Of a stretch of 64,000 bases of DNA, positions 2,471 through 12,700 are shown piece by piece. The position numbers and the translations under genes were made by a program. Position 1 is the stretch's first letter. Every line of letters begins with the position of its first letter. Under the pieces are notes generated by a model that did not search any database, had not been told where the DNA came from, and saw only the letters and a program-made list of their open reading frames with translations. Location of the stretch: positions 62,001 to 126,000 of the forward strand of contig NZ_ATXC01000002.1 of assembly GCF_000421485.1 (NCBI RefSeq). Reading direction: 5' to 3'. This DNA is from Desulfurobacterium sp. TC5-1. Its GTDB lineage: Bacteria; Aquificota; Aquificia; Desulfurobacteriales; Desulfurobacteriaceae.

Positions 2471-4213
2471 TCACTCTTTTATGAAAATACGTTCCGGCTT
2501 ATAGGCACCCCATATAGTAGGAAAATAGTTTCTAACTCTATTCCTCGCTGCCTCAAGAACAACAGGAGCCGCTATGTAAATGAGAGGTTGTTGTTCACAG
2601 ATTATTCTGTACGCCTTTCTATAAATCTTCACCCTCTTTTTAAAATCAAGCTCTTTCACCCCTTCGTCAAAAAGTCTATCAACCTCGGCTTCCCATTTGG
2701 TCACCGGCTTTTTCTGCCCCGGATTCCACAGGTGAAGCTGTCCAGAACTTTTCCAGACATTCCTTCCGCCGTTTGGATCCATAGAACCTGTAAGCCCTAT
2801 AATCACAGCATCAAAGTCGTGAGTGTTGAGAAGCTTATCAACAAGATTGTTAAAATCAAGAGGTTGAAAGTGAACATCTATACCAAGTCTTTTAAAATCA
2901 AACTTCAAAATCGTGCCTATCTGAACTCTTGCAGGATTGTTGGAATTCGTAAGGAGGTTAAACTCCACTTTATGGCCATCCGGCGTTTCAAGCCACCCGT
3001 CTCCGTTTCTATCTTTTAATCCAATACTTTCAAGCAACGCCTTTGCCTTTTTAAGATCATAAGGAAACTTAGGTGCATTCTCATCGTAATAGAGTTTATT
3101 GGCAGACGTAACAGGCGTATAAACGGGAAAACCAAGCCCATTATAAACCGTCAGAACAATACCCTTTCTATCTACGGCGTGAGAAATGGCTCTCCTGAAA
3201 GTCGCATTTGAAAAGAGTCTCCACTTCCAGTCAGGAACAGCACCTTTTCGCTCGTTAAAACACAAAAAATCAGCGGTAAGAGAAGGACCTAAGTTATATA
3301 TGGTAAAGTTGCCGTTTTTCTCTTCTTGTTTTAAGGCTGGAAAATCGTCACCGGAAAGTCCATAAAAATCCAGCTCACCATTCTTAAACTTAAGAAGTTC
3401 TGTGTCTTTCTGCGGGAGAATGTATGTAACCTTTTTTTCTACAAAGGGTAATTTATCGCCGTAATCATCTCTCATATAGTAGTAAGGATTCCTCTCATAA
3501 ATCAGATACTGACCGGGAACATATTTCACAAGTTTATAGGGTCCCGTCCCTACAATTTCTTCTGGCGGCGTTGAGACAGTCCATACGTTATCAAAACTTC
3601 CATCATTTACAGATTTTTCAAGAACATGTTTGGGGAAAATAGCTGCTGAAAGTGAATAGAGAAGTGGAGCAAAAGGCTCAGGCAGAACAAACTCAACTGT
3701 GTAATTATCTATCTTCCTGATTTCCGGTAACTTACCGTCAATCTCAAACATATCTTTAACAGAATTGGGATAGCGGGGATTGAAGTAGATATCTCTGTAA
3801 GTAAAAACAACATCGTCAGCTGTAAAAGGTTTACCGTCAAACCACCTGACATTTTTCCTTAAATGAAATATCCACCTCCTGCCGTTGTCCTTAAATTCCC
3901 ACGAAACTGCAAGCCTGCCTGTAGGTTTCAGTGTTTTAATGTCAACATCGGTAAGACCTTCAAAAAGTCCACCAACAGCACCTGTAGAAGACGTCTCATG
4001 GGCAAAAACAAGGTTAAAAGTTTTTGGATCAGAGGAGGAAGAGTCGTAAAGCGTTCCCCCGTAAGCACCTTTCTGAAAATGGACTTTTGACGGATCCACC
4101 CTTTCACCAAGAACAGCATCACCTGCAGGTTTGCCGGAAGGCTCAGAACAGGAAAAAAAGAAAAAGGGCAGAAGCGCCAAAAGCACCCTGCCCCTGAGTT
4201 TTATCAGTTTCAA
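2471..4213 (-). CDS. Peptide/oligosaccharide-type ABC substrate-binding lipoprotein (SBP family 5)
   Basis: This resembles OppA/DppA binding proteins: about 580 residues with the family signatures TFNLVFAHETSS near the mature N terminus, WEFKDNGRRWIFHLRKNVRW, DGKPFTADDVVFTYRD and GTGPYKLVKY. I place the start at the TTG at 4213, because AGGAGA sits seven bases upstream and this gives a short positive leader (KLIKLRGR), a hydrophobic core and the lipobox FFSC, hence a lipoprotein. An in-frame GTG at 4246 would give a longer, less likely leader. No permease or ATPase gene is adjacent. It starts only 19 bases after the small membrane protein gene that closes the cytochrome block, so it is probably cotranscribed with it. 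Peptide binding is inferred from family only. Confidence 0.85.
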   Translation of the reverse strand: MKLIKLRGRVLLALLPFFFFSCSEPSGKPAGDAVLGERVDPSKVHFQKGAYGGTLYDSSSSDPKTFNLVFAHETSSTGAVGGLFEGLTDVDIKTLKPTGRLAVSWEFKDNGRRWIFHLRKNVRWFDGKPFTADDVVFTYRDIYFNPRYPNSVKDMFEIDGKLPEIRKIDNYTVEFVLPEPFAPLLYSLSAAIFPKHVLEKSVNDGSFDNVWTVSTPPEEIVGTGPYKLVKYVPGQYLIYERNPYYYMRDDYGDKLPFVEKKVTYILPQKDTELLKFKNGELDFYGLSGDDFPALKQEEKNGNFTIYNLGPSLTADFLCFNERKGAVPDWKWRLFSNATFRRAISHAVDRKGIVLTVYNGLGFPVYTPVTSANKLYYDENAPKFPYDLKKAKALLESIGLKDRNGDGWLETPDGHKVEFNLLTNSNNPARVQIGTILKFDFKRLGIDVHFQPLDFNNLVDKLLNTHDFDAVIIGLTGSMDPNGGRNVWKSSGQLHLWNPGQKKPVTKWEAEVDRLFDEGVKELDFKKRVKIYRKAYRIICEQQPLIYIAAPVVLEAARNRVRNYFPTIWGAYKPERIFIKE

Positions 4214-4232
4214 AAATGTCTCTCCTATAAAT

Positions 4233-4403
4233 TTAGTGCCCACCACCGAAGAAAAGATGGAAGAGGTGAAGCCCCTGCTTCATACAATTTATAGACACCA
4301 TACCTACCGTAAGTATAGCAACTATGAGTTCAAACGCAGATATCCAGCTTTTAAAGAAGTTTATTTTTCCCATCTTACTATGAAACTCTCCGCTATGAGC
4401 CAT
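4233..4403 (-). CDS. Small membrane protein (56 aa), unknown
   Basis: This 56-codon frame opens with ATG at 4403 behind a near-perfect ribosome site (GGGAGGTGAGGA) and ends at TAA 4233-4235. The protein begins MAHSGEFHSKMGK, has one hydrophobic helix (about residues 18-40, ending in INC), and finishes with a His/Phe/Gly-rich tail HLFHLFFGGGH. The tail and the N terminus hold several His that could bind haem or metal, but there is no CxxCH. It is the eighth gene of the cytochrome operon, so an accessory subunit or assembly role for the cytochrome complex is plausible. I do not recognise the family. Confidence 0.7.
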   Translation of the reverse strand: MAHSGEFHSKMGKINFFKSWISAFELIVAILTVGMVSINCMKQGLHLFHLFFGGGH

Positions 4404-4417
4404 TCCTCACCTCCCAA

Positions 4418-4579
4418 TTATAACCACATAAAGAATGATTGAGCGTACCAGTGAACAAACTTAACAAACCAGACAAGTATCCATGGAAGGAAAAGGATGA
4501 TAAATACAGCCGCAAGCACTATCCAGGCCTTCTTCCATGAATATCTTTCAAACTCCTTTGCAGTCATCTCTTTAGCCAT
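4418..4579 (-). CDS. Small membrane protein (53 aa), unknown
   Basis: This 53-residue frame starts at ATG 4579, eight bases after AGGAGG, and stops at TAA 4418-4420. The N-terminal third is charged (MAKEMTAKEFERYSWKK), followed by a Trp-rich hydrophobic span of roughly 30 residues (about 18-50) that would cross the membrane once. It sits between the 24-haem cytochrome (24 bases upstream) and the 56-residue membrane protein (14 bases downstream). The size and layout recall small single-helix subunits of respiratory complexes; this is inference and no family was recognised. Confidence 0.7.
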   Translation of the reverse strand: MAKEMTAKEFERYSWKKAWIVLAAVFIILFLPWILVWFVKFVHWYAQSFFMWL

Positions 4580-4602
4580 CTGCAGCTTCCTCCTGCTTTA
4601 GT

Positions 4603-7131
4603 TTACTTATAGCTTGATGTGGACTGCCTAACCTCCTTTTTATGGTACCACATGTACCTAATAAGAGCCTCGTCGCCGTGGCAGTCAACACAGGTGCTTC
4701 CAGCAATCGTCCTATTTCTTAAGAAGTAAGTTTTTCCATGTATGTGTGCATCGTGACATGTCTCACACGCAATTGCCCCAGCCCTCTTCACTTCTGTGCC
4801 ATTCTCCGCAAATATAGGCCATTTACCTTTCCTGCCGGGTCTATCCTGGGCAACAATATCAAAGTCAGCCCTTGGATGGAAGAAGTATTCAACTGTAGCA
4901 TTTTCTGCTACGCCACCTTTGCTGTGACAGGTGAGACAGTAGGATGATGCTCTATCAACGGTTTCGCCGTTAGGATATGTAAAGTTCTTAAGTTCAATCT
5001 TCCACAGGAAAGCACCTTTAGCCTGGTGAGGTACGTGACATGCAGAACACATCTGCCCATTAACATCATGACCTGTCCCTTTAATTGCCGCTTCTGTCTT
5101 GTGACATGAGATACAGAGCTTGCTTCCCCTGTTTGTAACCCTGAGGAATGGTTTACCGGCAGCGCTACCGTGCGGATCGTGACAGCTTGCACAGTCAACA
5201 ACACCTTCACCGGGAACGCCTGTCTTCTGATTAATAGCAGGAACAGCGTCCGTTTCAACTTTCCCACCAAGCGGATGCGAAATTTTACCGGTCGTGAGGC
5301 TTGCAGCCATTTTACCGGGAGCGTGACAGGAAGTACACTGTCTCTCGTTAATCGTCTTGCCTTCACCAAGCTCTCTATTCCAGAGAGTCGGACCTTTAGG
5401 ATTGTGGGGTGTATGGCAAGCAGAGCACTGCCCGTTTTTCTCAATACTTTCACTTTTAGCCACAAGATAGTGTGCTGTTCCTTTAAGATTTTTATCTTTA
5501 TGACACTTAAGACAGAGGGCTGAATCACCCTCGACCGGCACAATGAGAGCATATGGATTACCGCTGTGCGGATTATGACAGCTTGCACATGTAACAACTT
5601 TGCCGTCTTTTGTTCTGACATCAATTGGGTGATCTTTAAACTTGCCCGCCATAACTTTCGCTCTGGCTACGCCGCCTTCACCGTGGCACGCCATACAGAA
5701 AGCTGAAACGTTATCAAGGCCTTCTCCTCCTCTGATACCTTTAAGGTATGCACCGACTGCCTTGTGTGGAACGTGGCAAGCGGCACACCTTCCAGCATTC
5801 CTTGGCGTTTCTCCGAGAACATTTCTATTGTCAATGGCACCGTGAACACCCTTTTTACATGCACAGTTGCCTGGATGACATCTACTACACAGGTCTTTTT
5901 CTGGCACCCTGAGGAAACTGCCGTTTGCCCTGTCACTCTTTGGAGCACCAACGGCACTCCACTTGTGGGGATTGTGGCAGGTAACACAGGCAACCCTGCC
6001 CTTTTTGAGCGGCAGAGACCTAAACTTCGTTTCAACATTTGTTGGGTGGGAAATAGTACCCATGTCAGGTGCTTCACCGCCAGGATAGTGACATGAAATA
6101 CACATTCTATCTGCGTCAGACGCCTCAAGATAAACAGCATAAGCTGTGGCTTTATCATTAAGCTTTCTACCCCAGAGGTTTGCACCGACTGCCTTGTGCG
6201 CTGTATGACACTCAAGACAGGCGTCTTTGTCTGCGAATCCATGTTTTGAATGGAGAATGGTCTTCTCTGAAACGTGACAGGCAACACAGAGAGACTTGGG
6301 TGATTCTGCAAGGAGCCTCTTTTCATCTGAATGGTGAACCTTGTGACATGTGTAACACTCAACCTTACCACTATCACCAAACTTTAAGCCTGTGTCAGAA
6401 GGCTTAACACCAAGAGAATCTACAGCAACAAGAACCGGGTGAGACATTTTATTCCTGTGCTCAGGTGAATTGAGCTCCTCTGTGTGGCACACTGAACAGA
6501 GCTGAGAATCTTTATTTGATGTAATAAGCGCATGTTCACCCTGACCTTTGTGGGCAGCGTGACATGACTGACAGGTAACTTCTCCATCCTTACCGACCCT
6601 GCCGTGTAGAGACTCTATCTTGGCTATAACGGATGAAGACATCTTTCCTGCAGTATCGGCAAGGATAGGATGGTTACCGTGACCTGTATTGTTCTTGTGA
6701 CAATCTATACACATGCTTGAATCTGTATTTTTAAACCGCATGAAGGTGTAGTCCAATTTGTCCTGGCTGCCGACCTCTGAGTGAGGCGTATGACAGGTAC
6801 CGCAGAAAAGCCTCCCATTATGGAGAGGGAACTTCTTGGGAATCTTCATATCTTCAGGAACTTTAACATCAACAGGGTGGGAATGCTTACCAAAGTTAAG
6901 GAAAGTTAACCTGTCATCGGCCATAGAGCCGTCATGACAGGTTAAACACATTATCGTATCCCCTGCCATTAAAGTCCTATCGGTAAGAAGCCTGGGAGAA
7001 CTCACCTTAGCTTCCAGCAGCCAGTTCTGGTGACAAACCAGACAGTCCTTCTTCATGCTCTTCTCAAGCTTCGCATGAGAAACTGTTGGTATCGCAACCA
7101 CTGATAGGAGAATAGCTAAGGTCTTCCTCAT
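4603..7131 (-). CDS. 24-haem c-type cytochrome built from six tetrahaem modules
   Basis: An 842-residue exported protein with a Sec signal (MRKTLAILLSVVAIPTVSHA) and 24 CxxCH haem-binding motifs. From the third motif onward, every odd-numbered motif carries a further His three residues later (CxxCHxPH or CxxCHxxH) and every even-numbered one does not. Comparing the spacers gives a four-motif period: in each module the second haem is followed by a HP(V/T/I/L) segment and the third by (G)xVxCxxCHxxH, and the last four modules open with CxxCHxxHxxxGxxL. Six modules of about 140 residues account for the whole chain. It belongs with doubled-CxxCH multihaem cytochromes that pass electrons through the periplasm or outside the cell. 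No lipobox or membrane anchor is seen. The ATG overlaps the NHL gene stop (TAATG). Function as an electron wire is inference. Confidence 0.9.
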   Translation of the reverse strand: MRKTLAILLSVVAIPTVSHAKLEKSMKKDCLVCHQNWLLEAKVSSPRLLTDRTLMAGDTIMCLTCHDGSMADDRLTFLNFGKHSHPVDVKVPEDMKIPKKFPLHNGRLFCGTCHTPHSEVGSQDKLDYTFMRFKNTDSSMCIDCHKNNTGHGNHPILADTAGKMSSSVIAKIESLHGRVGKDGEVTCQSCHAAHKGQGEHALITSNKDSQLCSVCHTEELNSPEHRNKMSHPVLVAVDSLGVKPSDTGLKFGDSGKVECYTCHKVHHSDEKRLLAESPKSLCVACHVSEKTILHSKHGFADKDACLECHTAHKAVGANLWGRKLNDKATAYAVYLEASDADRMCISCHYPGGEAPDMGTISHPTNVETKFRSLPLKKGRVACVTCHNPHKWSAVGAPKSDRANGSFLRVPEKDLCSRCHPGNCACKKGVHGAIDNRNVLGETPRNAGRCAACHVPHKAVGAYLKGIRGGEGLDNVSAFCMACHGEGGVARAKVMAGKFKDHPIDVRTKDGKVVTCASCHNPHSGNPYALIVPVEGDSALCLKCHKDKNLKGTAHYLVAKSESIEKNGQCSACHTPHNPKGPTLWNRELGEGKTINERQCTSCHAPGKMAASLTTGKISHPLGGKVETDAVPAINQKTGVPGEGVVDCASCHDPHGSAAGKPFLRVTNRGSKLCISCHKTEAAIKGTGHDVNGQMCSACHVPHQAKGAFLWKIELKNFTYPNGETVDRASSYCLTCHSKGGVAENATVEYFFHPRADFDIVAQDRPGRKGKWPIFAENGTEVKRAGAIACETCHDAHIHGKTYFLRNRTIAGSTCVDCHGDEALIRYMWYHKKEVRQSTSSYK

Positions 7132-7937
7132 TATTTAACCCCTTGTACATTAAATGTAAGTATCTTGTTTTTCAGAGGCTCAAGAACGTAAAGAACACCT
7201 GCATCGTAAGCGATGGATATTGGATATTGAAGTCCTTTAGCAACAACACCGTCAAAAGCACCGTATGGATTGAAGAGCTGAACAGCACCGTTAACAACAT
7301 CGGAAACGGCAACTTCACCGTTGAAAACGGCAATGCCTTTAGGCCTGTAAAAATCACCCTCTTCTACGCCAAAATCACCAAATACTCTCAAGAAGTTGCC
7401 ATCCTTATCAAAAACCTCAACCCTGGCATTAATAGAATCTACCACGTAAACATTCTTTCCATCGGTAGCAATCATGAAAGGCGAAACAAAGTCTCCAGGA
7501 ACAGAGCCTTTCTCACCGATCTGCTTAACCACTTTACCACTTTCAATAGAAACAACTTTCACACAATCATTCCTGGCATCCGTGACCCAGAGGTTGTTTC
7601 CGAGTCTAACAACATCTATAGGCCTGCCGGAAACATCAATGCTCTTTTTTAGCTTTCCGTCCTTTGAAAAAATCAAAACCTTACCGGATTGAGAAGCAAC
7701 ATAGATGCCATTGCTGTCAACAGAAATACCATAAGGATTGTTAGCCTTTATAGTCCCGACTTCGTCACCATCCTTATTTAAAACAACAATCCTCCCATTA
7801 AGACCGTCAACCACATAAACCTTTCCCGCTGAAACAGCTATATCGGACGGGAACTTAAAGTTCCCGCTTATTTCTCCGGCAAAAGACGGAACAGCGAAAG
7901 AAAAAATTGCAAACAACACCGCTATTAAAAATCTCAT
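7131..7937 (-). CDS. Exported NHL-repeat beta-propeller protein
   Basis: I set the start at ATG 7937, because it follows AGAGGTAAGG by a few bases and gives a clean signal peptide (MRFLIAVLFAIFSFAVPSFA); an upstream in-frame ATG at 8018 lies deep in the preceding gene. The mature protein of about 250 residues is a run of NHL/YncE-like blades, recognisable from repeats such as FKFPSDIAV, NPYGISVDSNG, SPFMIATDGKNVYVVDS, YRPKGIAVFNGEVAVSD and QYPISIAYDAGVLYVLE. Such propellers are protein-docking scaffolds. Here it is wedged between two multihaem cytochromes, so a role in assembling them is a fair inference. No CxxCH is present. Confidence 0.85.
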   Translation of the reverse strand: MRFLIAVLFAIFSFAVPSFAGEISGNFKFPSDIAVSAGKVYVVDGLNGRIVVLNKDGDEVGTIKANNPYGISVDSNGIYVASQSGKVLIFSKDGKLKKSIDVSGRPIDVVRLGNNLWVTDARNDCVKVVSIESGKVVKQIGEKGSVPGDFVSPFMIATDGKNVYVVDSINARVEVFDKDGNFLRVFGDFGVEEGDFYRPKGIAVFNGEVAVSDVVNGAVQLFNPYGAFDGVVAKGLQYPISIAYDAGVLYVLEPLKNKILTFNVQGVK

Positions 7938-7941
7938 CGCC

Positions 7942-8682
7942 TTACCTCTTCCAGATGAAGTTTGGGAAGTAGATCTTTCCTTCCTCAAGTAATCCCTTAA
8001 CGACTTCGTTGTTCTCAATCTCGTTTATCCTCTCCTGAGAAAATCCGAGTCCAACAAGGTTAAGAGGATTCCTTCCTCTATGACAGTCTGCACACTTGTA
8101 AGGATCCTTTGCAAGATTGTTGTAAATCTTCGAAACAGCTGCTGCATCGTGGAGCAATCCTTCGTTACCCTTTAACGGAATATCAACCGGTTTTCCGTTA
8201 ATAAGTGGCGTTATTCTTGCATCACTGTCAAGGCCTGAAAGCGCAACCCTATCACCGACCTTAACGTATCTAACGCCGTACATATCTTCCGTATTTTTTA
8301 CTACTTTCATCTTTCCATCTTTTGTTATCTCAACCCACGCATATGTGAGCCCCGCCTCCTTATAGTGGCATACTGTACAGCTCATAAACGTTGAGTGAGC
8401 ATTGTAAAAAGGCGCAAGTGTTTCATCTTTCGTGTGCGCTGCGTACGAGTGACATGCAACACAAACATCCCTTACAGGATACTCATAACCGTTCGGCGCA
8501 TGGAACGGCTGAGGATACTCAGATTTCTTTGGAAACTGAGGCTTTTCTTTTAACTGTTCCTCTATTTTCTTTTCCCATCCTGAAATGTTTGAAGGTGAAC
8601 CCTTCAAGAGAGGGCTTATTACACCTTCAGCAAAAGCCGCAACAGGAAAAATAGCTGCTATGACAAAAACAAGTTTTCTCAT
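7942..8682 (-). CDS. Triheme c-type cytochrome, periplasmic
   Basis: A 246-residue exported protein with a signal peptide (MRKLVFVIAAIFPVAAFAEG) and three CxxCH sites: CVACH, CTVCH and CADCH. The segment VCVACHSYAAHTKDE and later GLLHDAAAV add His that could be distal ligands. The C terminus is unpaired with any membrane anchor. Its ATG shares the last base of the cytochrome b stop (TAATG), indicating translational coupling. It probably takes electrons from the membrane cytochrome bc pair encoded just upstream; this is inferred from gene order. Exact family not recognised. Confidence 0.85.
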   Translation of the reverse strand: MRKLVFVIAAIFPVAAFAEGVISPLLKGSPSNISGWEKKIEEQLKEKPQFPKKSEYPQPFHAPNGYEYPVRDVCVACHSYAAHTKDETLAPFYNAHSTFMSCTVCHYKEAGLTYAWVEITKDGKMKVVKNTEDMYGVRYVKVGDRVALSGLDSDARITPLINGKPVDIPLKGNEGLLHDAAAVSKIYNNLAKDPYKCADCHRGRNPLNLVGLGFSQERINEIENNEVVKGLLEEGKIYFPNFIWKR

Positions 8683-9605
8683 TATGCTGCCTCCTCGCTA
8701 AGTTCCTTTTCAAGAAGGTGATGTGCGTACTCGTGAATTTTGGCAACAATCTCTTCGTTAGGCAGATTTTCTATAGACTTAACAAATTCATACCTTTCTC
8801 TAAGAGCTGGATACTTCTCAAGAAGCTCGGGCTCATGCTCGGCTGTTCTCTTGATGATTCTTCTCCATGAGCGGGGCCTCTCTTCCATCCACTCAATCTC
8901 AGGTGAAATACCTGTAAGCCATATCCAGTCCATCGGAAACTTGTGCGGACCGTAATGAGTCATGTAGAGGTGAACAAGGGCAATCCATCCAACGGCAACT
9001 AAAGCTTCGTCACCGTGCGCTAAATAAGCTATCTGAATAGTAACAGGAGGGAGGTGCAAAAATCCCGTGAAAACTTCCGGAAGCCACAGAATCCAGCCTG
9101 TAATACCAATAGCAAGCATACCCCAGCCAACTGCGAAGAAGTCAAATTTATCAACCCACATCCATTCATCATAATCTGGAGGTGATTTTCTAAAGCCAAG
9201 AAGATATTTAAAATAATGAACTACCGTAATATCCGAAGGACCTGGAAGAAGTCTGTAAGTATCCCAGAACCCATACTTTTTGACCCTATCCCTGTTGGCT
9301 ATCATAAACATTATGCAGTAGAAAACGACAAAGAGGAAGTCAAAAAACATTATCGCACCGTCCACTCTATGCATTATCATCAATCCATTTATCCCTCCCA
9401 GGGCCTTAACAATGTACTTTGCCCAAGGAGCATTCCAGTACTTAAGGGGAAAACCTGTGATGACTTGAATAATCATCGTCATGATACCTACGTGCATAAG
9501 CGACTGTATTGTCGTCCACTTTTCGACATAAAACTTATCACCATCAACGATGATAAGTTTCTCATAATCCTCTCTCATTCTGAATTTTTCTTTAAGCCAT
9601 CCCAT
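8682..9605 (-). CDS. Membrane cytochrome b, quinone-reactive type
   Basis: A 307-residue protein with four hydrophobic helices and conserved-looking His in each half: the helix after SLMHVGIMTMIIQVITGF, then MIMHRVDGAIMFFDFLF, then IAYLAHGDEALVAVGWIALVHLYMTHYGPHKFP. This matches the diheme cytochrome b family of formate dehydrogenase, thiosulfate reductase and NiFe-hydrogenase membrane subunits, which exchange electrons with menaquinone. The C-terminal 90 residues are hydrophilic and Glu-rich. It begins one base after the stop of the anchored multihaem protein. The pair resembles bc-type quinol oxidoreductases such as Geobacter CbcBA; this comparison is from memory and untested here. Confidence 0.85.
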   Translation of the reverse strand: MGWLKEKFRMREDYEKLIIVDGDKFYVEKWTTIQSLMHVGIMTMIIQVITGFPLKYWNAPWAKYIVKALGGINGLMIMHRVDGAIMFFDFLFVVFYCIMFMIANRDRVKKYGFWDTYRLLPGPSDITVVHYFKYLLGFRKSPPDYDEWMWVDKFDFFAVGWGMLAIGITGWILWLPEVFTGFLHLPPVTIQIAYLAHGDEALVAVGWIALVHLYMTHYGPHKFPMDWIWLTGISPEIEWMEERPRSWRRIIKRTAEHEPELLEKYPALRERYEFVKSIENLPNEEIVAKIHEYAHHLLEKELSEEAA

Positions 9606-9606
9606 G

Positions 9607-10719
9607 TTACTTCCTCCTCACGAATTTGAGGGTATCGAGAATAACAACTATCGCTGCAAAGAGAATAACTTGAGCAGCCATCCAGAACATTCCCTCTTCA
9701 ACACCCCACGCTATTGTTTGAGAAAGATCCTCACCAAGCACAGGGTCAACGTGAACCCACTTGGTCTGGGCAAAGTTTTTCATATGATACTTGGGAGCAA
9801 GTGGGTGACACTCTGTTGAACGACCACATGTCATTTCAATATTCCTTGGATTAATGGATGACCTTGGATCGTCTTTGTGGAAGATATCATGGAAGTTTCC
9901 ACCTTTGTTTGTATGACAGTCAAGACAGTCTGCTGCCCGCGTATCTGACCTGTCAAGATACAACATCTTTGAGTGCATTGTTTTTTCGTAAGAATCGACT
10001 GCCTCAAGTATCCTCTGCTTCAGGTATTTATTATGAATACCCTCCACTTCAATAGCTTCTTCCATTTTCTTCTCGTTCTCATGACAGCTTGCACAAAGTT
10101 CAACAATTTCCCAGCCGTCTCTCCTTGTCTTCACAAATTGAGAAACGTAGCCGTTTCTAATTACTGGAATGTCCATTCTGCTTGCCACGTGTGCAAGCCT
10201 ATCAGCTGACCACTCCTTGTTCGTATGACAGAGATAACATCTGTCAAAACTTCCTTCAAGAGTCTCGAATTTCTTGATGTCAACAAGAAGTCTGTTGGTG
10301 TGACAGTACTGGCAGTTTGGATAAAGATCCGGAGCCTTTTTGTAATTTTTACCGTGCACACTCTCTTCCCACGTCTTATAGACGGCAGCATGGGAAAACG
10401 GCCTTTTCGTTGCCGGATCAATCACGTGACACTTTGCCGCACAGTTTACTTCTCTCACGACCGCCCTGTTGTGAGGATAAGACGTCGCCTTTGTGTGACA
10501 CTCAGTACAGTGGATGTTTCTGTGAACTGAGTGAAGATACTTTGCATCGTTAATGCTGCAGTCCACAATTTCCTTCTCACCGTTTTCCTTTACCTCTACA
10601 ACTGACAGCCCCTTAAGTCTGTGACAGTAGAGACATCCATCGTCTCCTATGTTCACATTTGCACGGGCTGTTCCACAGAGGGTTAGCATTCCCAACAAGA
10701 ACATTATGAAAGCTCTCAC
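9607..10719 (-). CDS. Membrane-anchored multihaem c-type cytochrome (up to eight haems)
   Basis: A 370-residue protein with a signal peptide (MRAFIMFLLGMLTLCGTARA), a large periplasmic domain and a C-terminal transmembrane helix (QVILFAAIVVILDTL) ending in KFVRRK, so it should be anchored with its haems outside. It has six canonical CxxCH sites (CLYCH, CTECH, CQYCH, CYLCH, CASCH, CLDCH), one CX3CH (CAAKCH) and one CX5CH (CGRSTECH). Variant spacing occurs in catalytic or unusual haems of other multihaem enzymes, but whether these two bind haem is not certain. Its stop is one base from the cytochrome b start, so the two should form a complex that connects the quinone pool to periplasmic cytochromes. 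Confidence 0.85.
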   Translation of the reverse strand: MRAFIMFLLGMLTLCGTARANVNIGDDGCLYCHRLKGLSVVEVKENGEKEIVDCSINDAKYLHSVHRNIHCTECHTKATSYPHNRAVVREVNCAAKCHVIDPATKRPFSHAAVYKTWEESVHGKNYKKAPDLYPNCQYCHTNRLLVDIKKFETLEGSFDRCYLCHTNKEWSADRLAHVASRMDIPVIRNGYVSQFVKTRRDGWEIVELCASCHENEKKMEEAIEVEGIHNKYLKQRILEAVDSYEKTMHSKMLYLDRSDTRAADCLDCHTNKGGNFHDIFHKDDPRSSINPRNIEMTCGRSTECHPLAPKYHMKNFAQTKWVHVDPVLGEDLSQTIAWGVEEGMFWMAAQVILFAAIVVILDTLKFVRRK

Positions 10720-10756
10720 TCCAGACCCCCTACACTATAAGTTTCTTGTTTCCTTC

Positions 10757-11131
10757 TCATTGAGACACTCCCTGGGCATGACACGCCCTACAGCTTGCCA
10801 CACCCGGTTTTAAGAATTTCTGAGAGATCACCTCTGCCCTTTTCACATCAGGAACGTGCATCTCCACGTTAAAGTGATGGCAGGGTAAACATCCGTACTT
10901 TGAAATCACAGCCATGTGTTCCCTGTGACTGAACCTGGCAAGCGTTAGCTCCTTTTCCGGTACGGTTACCTTTGGCTTAACCTCTTCAACCTTTTTCTCT
11001 ACCCTGGGTTTCTCTTCCTCTGTTTTATTTTCCGTTACAGGTTTTTCCGTAACAGGTTTTGTCTGAACCGTACCACATGAAGCTGCAAAAAGAACCGCCG
11101 CTGATAAAAACAGTACTTTCCTCATCTCCAC
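10757..11131 (-). CDS. Diheme c-type cytochrome lipoprotein
   Basis: A 124-residue protein with a short leader and lipobox (LFAASC), then a Pro/Glu/Lys/Val-rich tether of about 40 residues and a small C-terminal domain with two haem sites, CLPCH and CRACH. The HREHM and HHFNVEMH His may act as distal ligands. The GTG at 11131 and an in-frame ATG at 11125 are both possible starts. It is the first gene after the promoter at 11248-11276. A lipid-anchored, flexibly tethered diheme domain fits a shuttle between membrane and periplasmic cytochromes (inference). Confidence 0.85.
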   Translation of the reverse strand: MEMRKVLFLSAAVLFAASCGTVQTKPVTEKPVTENKTEEEKPRVEKKVEEVKPKVTVPEKELTLARFSHREHMAVISKYGCLPCHHFNVEMHVPDVKRAEVISQKFLKPGVASCRACHAQGVSQ

Positions 11132-12274: not shown

Positions 12275-12700
12275 ATGGAGAACCGCAAAAATAAGAGACA
12301 GACAAAACAAAAGATTGTTATATATCAAACAGTTATGTCATCCAAAGACCACCCGACGGCCGAGCAGGTTTACGAGAGAGCAAAGAAAGAACTTAAAACC
12401 ATCAGCCTTGCCACCGTTTACAGAGTTTTGAAAGAACTGGTAAGGGAAGGAAAAATCGGTGAAATCGTCGTTAACAAACAGTCTCGTTATGACTACAAGA
12501 CTGAATATCATCACCATTTTGTCTGCACTTACTGCGGTAGAATATTTGACATCGATATCCCTATATGCGACATGGCAAGAAAGTTCGTAGAGGAACCAGG
12601 CCACATCATAGAAAATGCGCAGCATACATTCTTTGGAAAGTGTAAGATCTGCGCCCGGAAAGAAAAAGATAAAACCGGCATTCCACCTTCCACACCTTAA
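12275..12700 (+). CDS. Fur-family metalloregulator (Fur/PerR type)
   Basis: A 141-residue repressor. The N-terminal winged helix is clear (KDHPTAEQVYERAKK, then ISLATVYRVLKELVREG as the recognition helix). The C-terminal dimer domain has HHHFVCTYC, IFDIDIP and a second CKIC pair, which together form the structural zinc site of the PerR/Fur group. The His cluster after the hinge is the usual regulatory metal site. Iron or peroxide sensing would be the expected role, and iron supply for many haems is an obvious need here. Fur, PerR and Zur cannot be told apart from these features. Its stop is six bases from the convergent aldehyde dehydrogenase stop. Confidence 0.9.
   Translation: MENRKNKRQTKQKIVIYQTVMSSKDHPTAEQVYERAKKELKTISLATVYRVLKELVREGKIGEIVVNKQSRYDYKTEYHHHFVCTYCGRIFDIDIPICDMARKFVEEPGHIIENAQHTFFGKCKICARKEKDKTGIPPSTP

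Follow-up and report, generated by a model that had tools for sequence, protein, structure and literature searches.

A putative Cbc5-like multihaem operon related to porin-cytochrome clusters, without a detected porin, in a deep-sea-vent Desulfurobacterium

Porin-cytochrome (Pcc) clusters have been reported in Desulfurobacterium thermolithotrophum and Thermovibrio ammonificans (Shi et al., 2014, PMC4245776). They include a membrane cytochrome (Dester_0351/Theam_0871, published as 79% identical to one another) that has six CX2CH and two CX3-5CH motifs and has been linked to quinone cycling (PMC4245776). Geobacter Cbc5 comprises the 7-haem CbcA, the PF01292 cytochrome b CbcB, the 12-haem CbcC, the 2-haem CbcD and the membrane protein CbcE. 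A four-helix, four-histidine pattern of the cytochrome b type is found in membrane subunits that pass electrons to quinones or take them up from quinones.

Here we compare these systems with a locus from a deep-sea-vent bacterium of the Desulfurobacteriaceae (genome size 1.65 Mb), contained in a stretch of 64,000 nucleotides that is referred to as a whole as the window. Open reading frames and motifs read from the sequence give an operon of eight minus-strand genes, A to H, at 4233-11131, and all eight genes listed for the region 4213-11131 in the initial annotation are present. A (10757-11131) encodes a diheme lipoprotein with the lipobox FAASC, a Lys/Glu/Pro linker and two CxxCH motifs, and B (9607-10719) a 370-residue cytochrome with six CxxCH motifs plus CAAKCH and CGRSTECH, anchored by a C-terminal membrane helix. 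C (8682-9605) is a PF01292-type cytochrome b with four helices and invariant histidines at 38, 79, 197, 212 and 217. The secreted products are the triheme cytochrome D (7942-8682, 246 residues, three CxxCH), the NHL-repeat beta-propeller E (7131-7937, haem motif absent) and the 842-residue cytochrome F (4603-7131), with 24 CxxCH motifs in tandem tetrahaem modules. Last come two single-helix membrane proteins: G (4418-4579, 53 residues), found in every complete locus including that of the sister family, and H (4233-4403, 56 residues, ending in GGGH), with a counterpart after G in nearly all loci. The hydrophobic N-terminal signals, the lipobox on A, the C-terminal helix on B and the single helices of G and H can all be seen directly in the sequence.

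Together A (2), B (6), D (3) and F (24) carry 35 CxxCH motifs which, with the one CX3CH and one CX5CH of B, make 37 possible c-haem sites and reproduce the count of the initial annotation. The non-motif histidines of A, B, D and F number 4, 13, 4 and 33, so that every haem protein would have enough to spare for bis-histidine ligation. From A to H the junctions are a 37-base gap between A and B, then 1 base, a TAATG overlap, 4 bases, a second TAATG overlap, 23 bases and 14 bases, in agreement with the earlier description of most junctions as overlapping or shorter than 30 bases. The promoter proposed for the operon, TTGACA-17-TAACAT, is present on the minus strand at 11276-11248, but such matches occur at chance density (21 in the region vs 18.5 +/- 3.5 in shuffles) and this one therefore carries little weight. 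Directly downstream of H in three species of the window's genus is I (2471-4246, minus strand, start possibly at 4213), an oligopeptide-binding (SBP_bac_5) lipoprotein gene that overlaps H if the GTG start is used and may be co-transcribed with the operon in this genus. We also noted a gene on the plus strand at 12275-12700, slightly upstream of the operon and past a nucleoside phosphorylase gene, that by sequence inspection encodes a Fur/PerR-like protein, a possible candidate regulator of the operon.

The PF01292 model was matched by 12 of 13 orthologues of cytochrome b (best E 1.2e-13), with H38, H79, H197 and H212 invariant; the window's own copy alone gave no Pfam match, and its predicted structure was of low confidence (pLDDT 54.9), too poor for a fold search. 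By family profile and by its four conserved transmembrane histidines, C thus appears to belong with the PF01292 cytochromes b. As judged through the orthologues, then, a cytochrome b of this type adjoins an anchored cytochrome with eight haem sites, and this is the layout of Geobacter Cbc5/CbcBA (cbcEDCBA), with which the operon was compared by layout only. Both operons also combine a large multihaem cytochrome with a small membrane protein, and in both a porin is absent. Unlike Cbc5, however, the window's operon has a large cytochrome of 24 rather than 12 haems, atypical CX3CH and CX5CH motifs in B, and a soluble triheme D and an NHL protein E instead of the HAMP-containing diheme CbcD; no HAMP match was obtained anywhere in the operon. 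A plain Cbc5 homologue was rejected because the HAMP subunit is absent, and the likeness is kept as one of probable working, based on similar layout. Since an anchored B beside C is the Cbc5 arrangement, we infer that B, C, G and H oxidise menaquinol and that D and F pass the electrons on, and a route from quinones to multihaem cytochromes is the best reading of the operon. MtrCAB and MtoAB likewise provide a multihaem route leading outward from quinones, and F scores weakly with DmsE/MtrA-type models, but the window's operon has neither an MtrB-type barrel nor a CymA-type NapC quinol oxidase.

A search of 136 genomes of the class found the gene for cytochrome b in 22, of which 21 belong to one family and one to a sister family. 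Named matches in a contig search were to Desulfurobacteriaceae (Thermovibrio and Desulfurobacterium MAGs) and to one "Aquificota bacterium", all within the same order. Synteny was compared across 20 loci, drawn from seven Desulfurobacteriaceae genera and a single sister family, and B-C-D-E-F-G proved collinear in every locus that was not broken by a contig end; the conservation of gene order that the initial annotation had suggested checking is therefore confirmed, and confinement of the gene set to the window's genus is ruled out. All eight haem sites of B are conserved in 20/20 orthologues, and the two atypical motifs among them do not vary at identities down to 49%, which argues for haem binding or another constraint on both. 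The conserved order in 20 loci and the invariance of these two motifs indicate that the gene set is not a chance assembly. One family member (G010, 98% complete) has neither the cytochrome b nor the barrel described below, probably through loss of the entire cluster.

The B proteins of genomes G005 and G011, which we take to be D. thermolithotrophum and T. ammonificans, are 79.6% identical, in agreement with the published 79%. The window's B has the features of the Dester_0351/Theam_0871 type (a membrane cytochrome with six CX2CH and two CX3-5CH motifs) and, by sequence, is assigned as its orthologue. The initial annotation had not recognised the gene set. We find instead that its core largely matches, in the same order, the named Pcc cluster that Shi et al. 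(PMC4245776) reported for D. thermolithotrophum and T. ammonificans, and that its inner-membrane half resembles Geobacter Cbc5. The gene set is thus already known, as a variant of the published Pcc cluster, and the absence of the porin is peculiar to the window's genus.

The first three genes of the operon in the other six genera encode a protein of 413-436 residues, a lipoprotein with seven CxxCH motifs and a cytochrome of ~300 residues, likewise with seven. The predicted structure of the 413-436-residue protein is a barrel of ~22 strands (pLDDT 76.8), and its best PDB structure matches, at modest TM-scores, are to the outer-membrane barrels of ushers, MOMP and AlgE; the protein is thus predicted to be an outer-membrane barrel. 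No homologue of this family barrel was found by sequence or profile search in the three genomes of the window's genus (G000, G001 and G003), and these searches rule out that the family porin was simply missed in the window's genome. The earlier statement that no beta-barrel porin accompanies the genes consequently holds, as regards the family barrel, for the window's locus and genome, but not for the other six genera, where the porin gene lies within the cluster.

A periplasmic multihaem cytochrome adjacent to the operon is also missing. In each of the three well-covered species of the window's genus the orthologous gene (product 48% identical) stands alone elsewhere in the genome, with bioB as a neighbour and a SecD-like gene downstream (both named from inspection of the sequence). 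No barrel was recognised in its neighbourhood. In G000 the relocated gene is at L052:8737-9516 (G000:C1:178.2 kb). The lipoprotein A aligns with part of the relatives' 7-haem outer-membrane lipoprotein (L036:6938-7543; 43-48% identity), retains two of its seven haem sites and scores just under the cut-off for PF14522. The window's locus therefore resembles the Pcc cluster in its orthologous core and in having A and a displaced 7-haem cytochrome akin to the cytochromes that flank the barrel in relatives. It differs in the undetected porin, in an operon without the 7-haem cytochrome, in a lipoprotein with two haem sites vs seven and in the peptide-binding lipoprotein I downstream. For the complete route from the quinone pool to a very large cytochrome seen by the initial annotation, the PF01292 family, the four histidines and the adjacent anchored B speak for the quinone-to-multihaem part, but not for "complete", as six of the seven genera carry a porin and two 7-haem proteins, a lipoprotein and a cytochrome, that would finish the route. 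The absence of the porin from a single genus is the most interesting part of the finding.

The reading we favour, and consider somewhat more probable than not, is that of a Cbc5-like menaquinol:cytochrome c oxidoreductase encoded together with a periplasmic haem wire and uncoupled here from the Pcc conduit. Menaquinol would be oxidised by C together with the anchored B and the small single-helix proteins G and H, the electrons would be carried off from the inner membrane by D, with its three haems, and by the modular F, with 24, and the NHL propeller E probably has an assembly or docking role. Most of the family has the module joined to a Pcc conduit (barrel, 7-haem cytochrome and 7-haem lipoprotein) that would deliver electrons outside the cell. 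With the barrel missing, the most probable end point of the module in the window's genus is the periplasm or the inner side of the outer membrane, where its electrons may go to a different reductase, to a soluble acceptor or to some outer-membrane partner. Described family members have been reported as S0 or nitrate reducers (PMC4245776, PMC5441870), which we counted against this reading. The S0 pathway of T. ammonificans has been reported as unsettled (PMC5441870) and, as T. ammonificans and D. thermolithotrophum are both described as S0 reducers, the acceptor used by the relatives may be extracellular sulfur.

In a tree of B, C and D the window's genus branched outside the other six with support of 92/88, a placement that is unsure as long branches meet there. 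Both a late gain of the conduit outside the window's genus and its loss within this genus are possible: A and the 7-haem cytochrome, common to both groups, point to loss, whereas a sister-family outgroup in which the barrel, the lipoprotein and the 7-haem cytochrome were all not found (L041/G022) points to gain. That outgroup and the branching order also fit the less probable view that the core B-C-D-E-F-G-H is a self-sufficient respiratory system older than the porin, and that the common ancestor of the remaining six genera acquired the Pcc conduit on a single occasion. The older core would then have been a quinol oxidase with a haem wire growing in tetrahaem steps and acting within the periplasm.

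Less probable, though deserving some weight, is that full extracellular electron transfer has been kept, either with an unrelated barrel encoded elsewhere that replaces the porin, possibly together with the relocated 7-haem cytochrome and A, or with F itself reaching the surface. The survival of the 7-haem orthologue in each of the genus's three well-covered genomes, the lipobox retained on A and the further large secreted cytochromes in G000 fit such an arrangement, but no barrel was recognised beside the relocated cytochrome and the searches, made for homologues of the family's barrel, found none. We think it improbable that the module works in reverse, supplying the quinone pool with electrons that come from periplasmic donors or from outside the cell. 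Reversal of CbcBA has been proposed for syntrophic sulfate reducers (PMC10553843), and H2-oxidising autotrophs need low-potential electrons; however, the sequence offers nothing that favours this direction, and H2 has been reported as the sole donor of T. ammonificans (PMC5441870). A decaying, non-functional remnant, which the missing porin, shortened lipoprotein and displaced 7-haem cytochrome might suggest, is very unlikely given core genes that are intact in three species of the genus at 66-94% identity with their haem-motif counts kept.

The present comparison extends the published Pcc entry for Desulfurobacteriaceae to a whole conserved operon. It also provides a natural comparison for the building or dismantling of extracellular conduits, with the same quinone-to-wire module present with and without an outer-membrane exit in closely related vent bacteria. 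Motif spacing and C..CHxPH signatures indicate that F is built of repeated four-haem modules. Its haem number is 24 or 28 among relatives, a difference of one module, and 13 in the sister family, and this stepwise change in length, a four-haem step in a giant cytochrome, suggests that F may be a wire of adjustable length. Searches of PDB sequences with B, C and F returned no close relative; for F there were short matches only, among them two to multihaem cytochromes and one to a 333-residue chain not labelled as a cytochrome. Plasmid searches with B and C found nothing.

Further multihaem cytochromes were observed at other loci. In one relative an additional 8-CxxCH lipoprotein cytochrome lies ~1 kb downstream of the operon (L033:16280-17488). 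Outside the window, a second multihaem cluster (G000:C1:1077000-1081000; L055:9105-13155), without a close PDB relative by sequence, encodes secreted cytochromes with 8, 5 and 6 CxxCH motifs, a PPIC-type peptidyl-prolyl isomerase and several small lipoproteins. On G000:C2, a secreted 8-CxxCH cytochrome adjoins a 4-CxxCH NrfH-like membrane cytochrome (L061:7139-9244).
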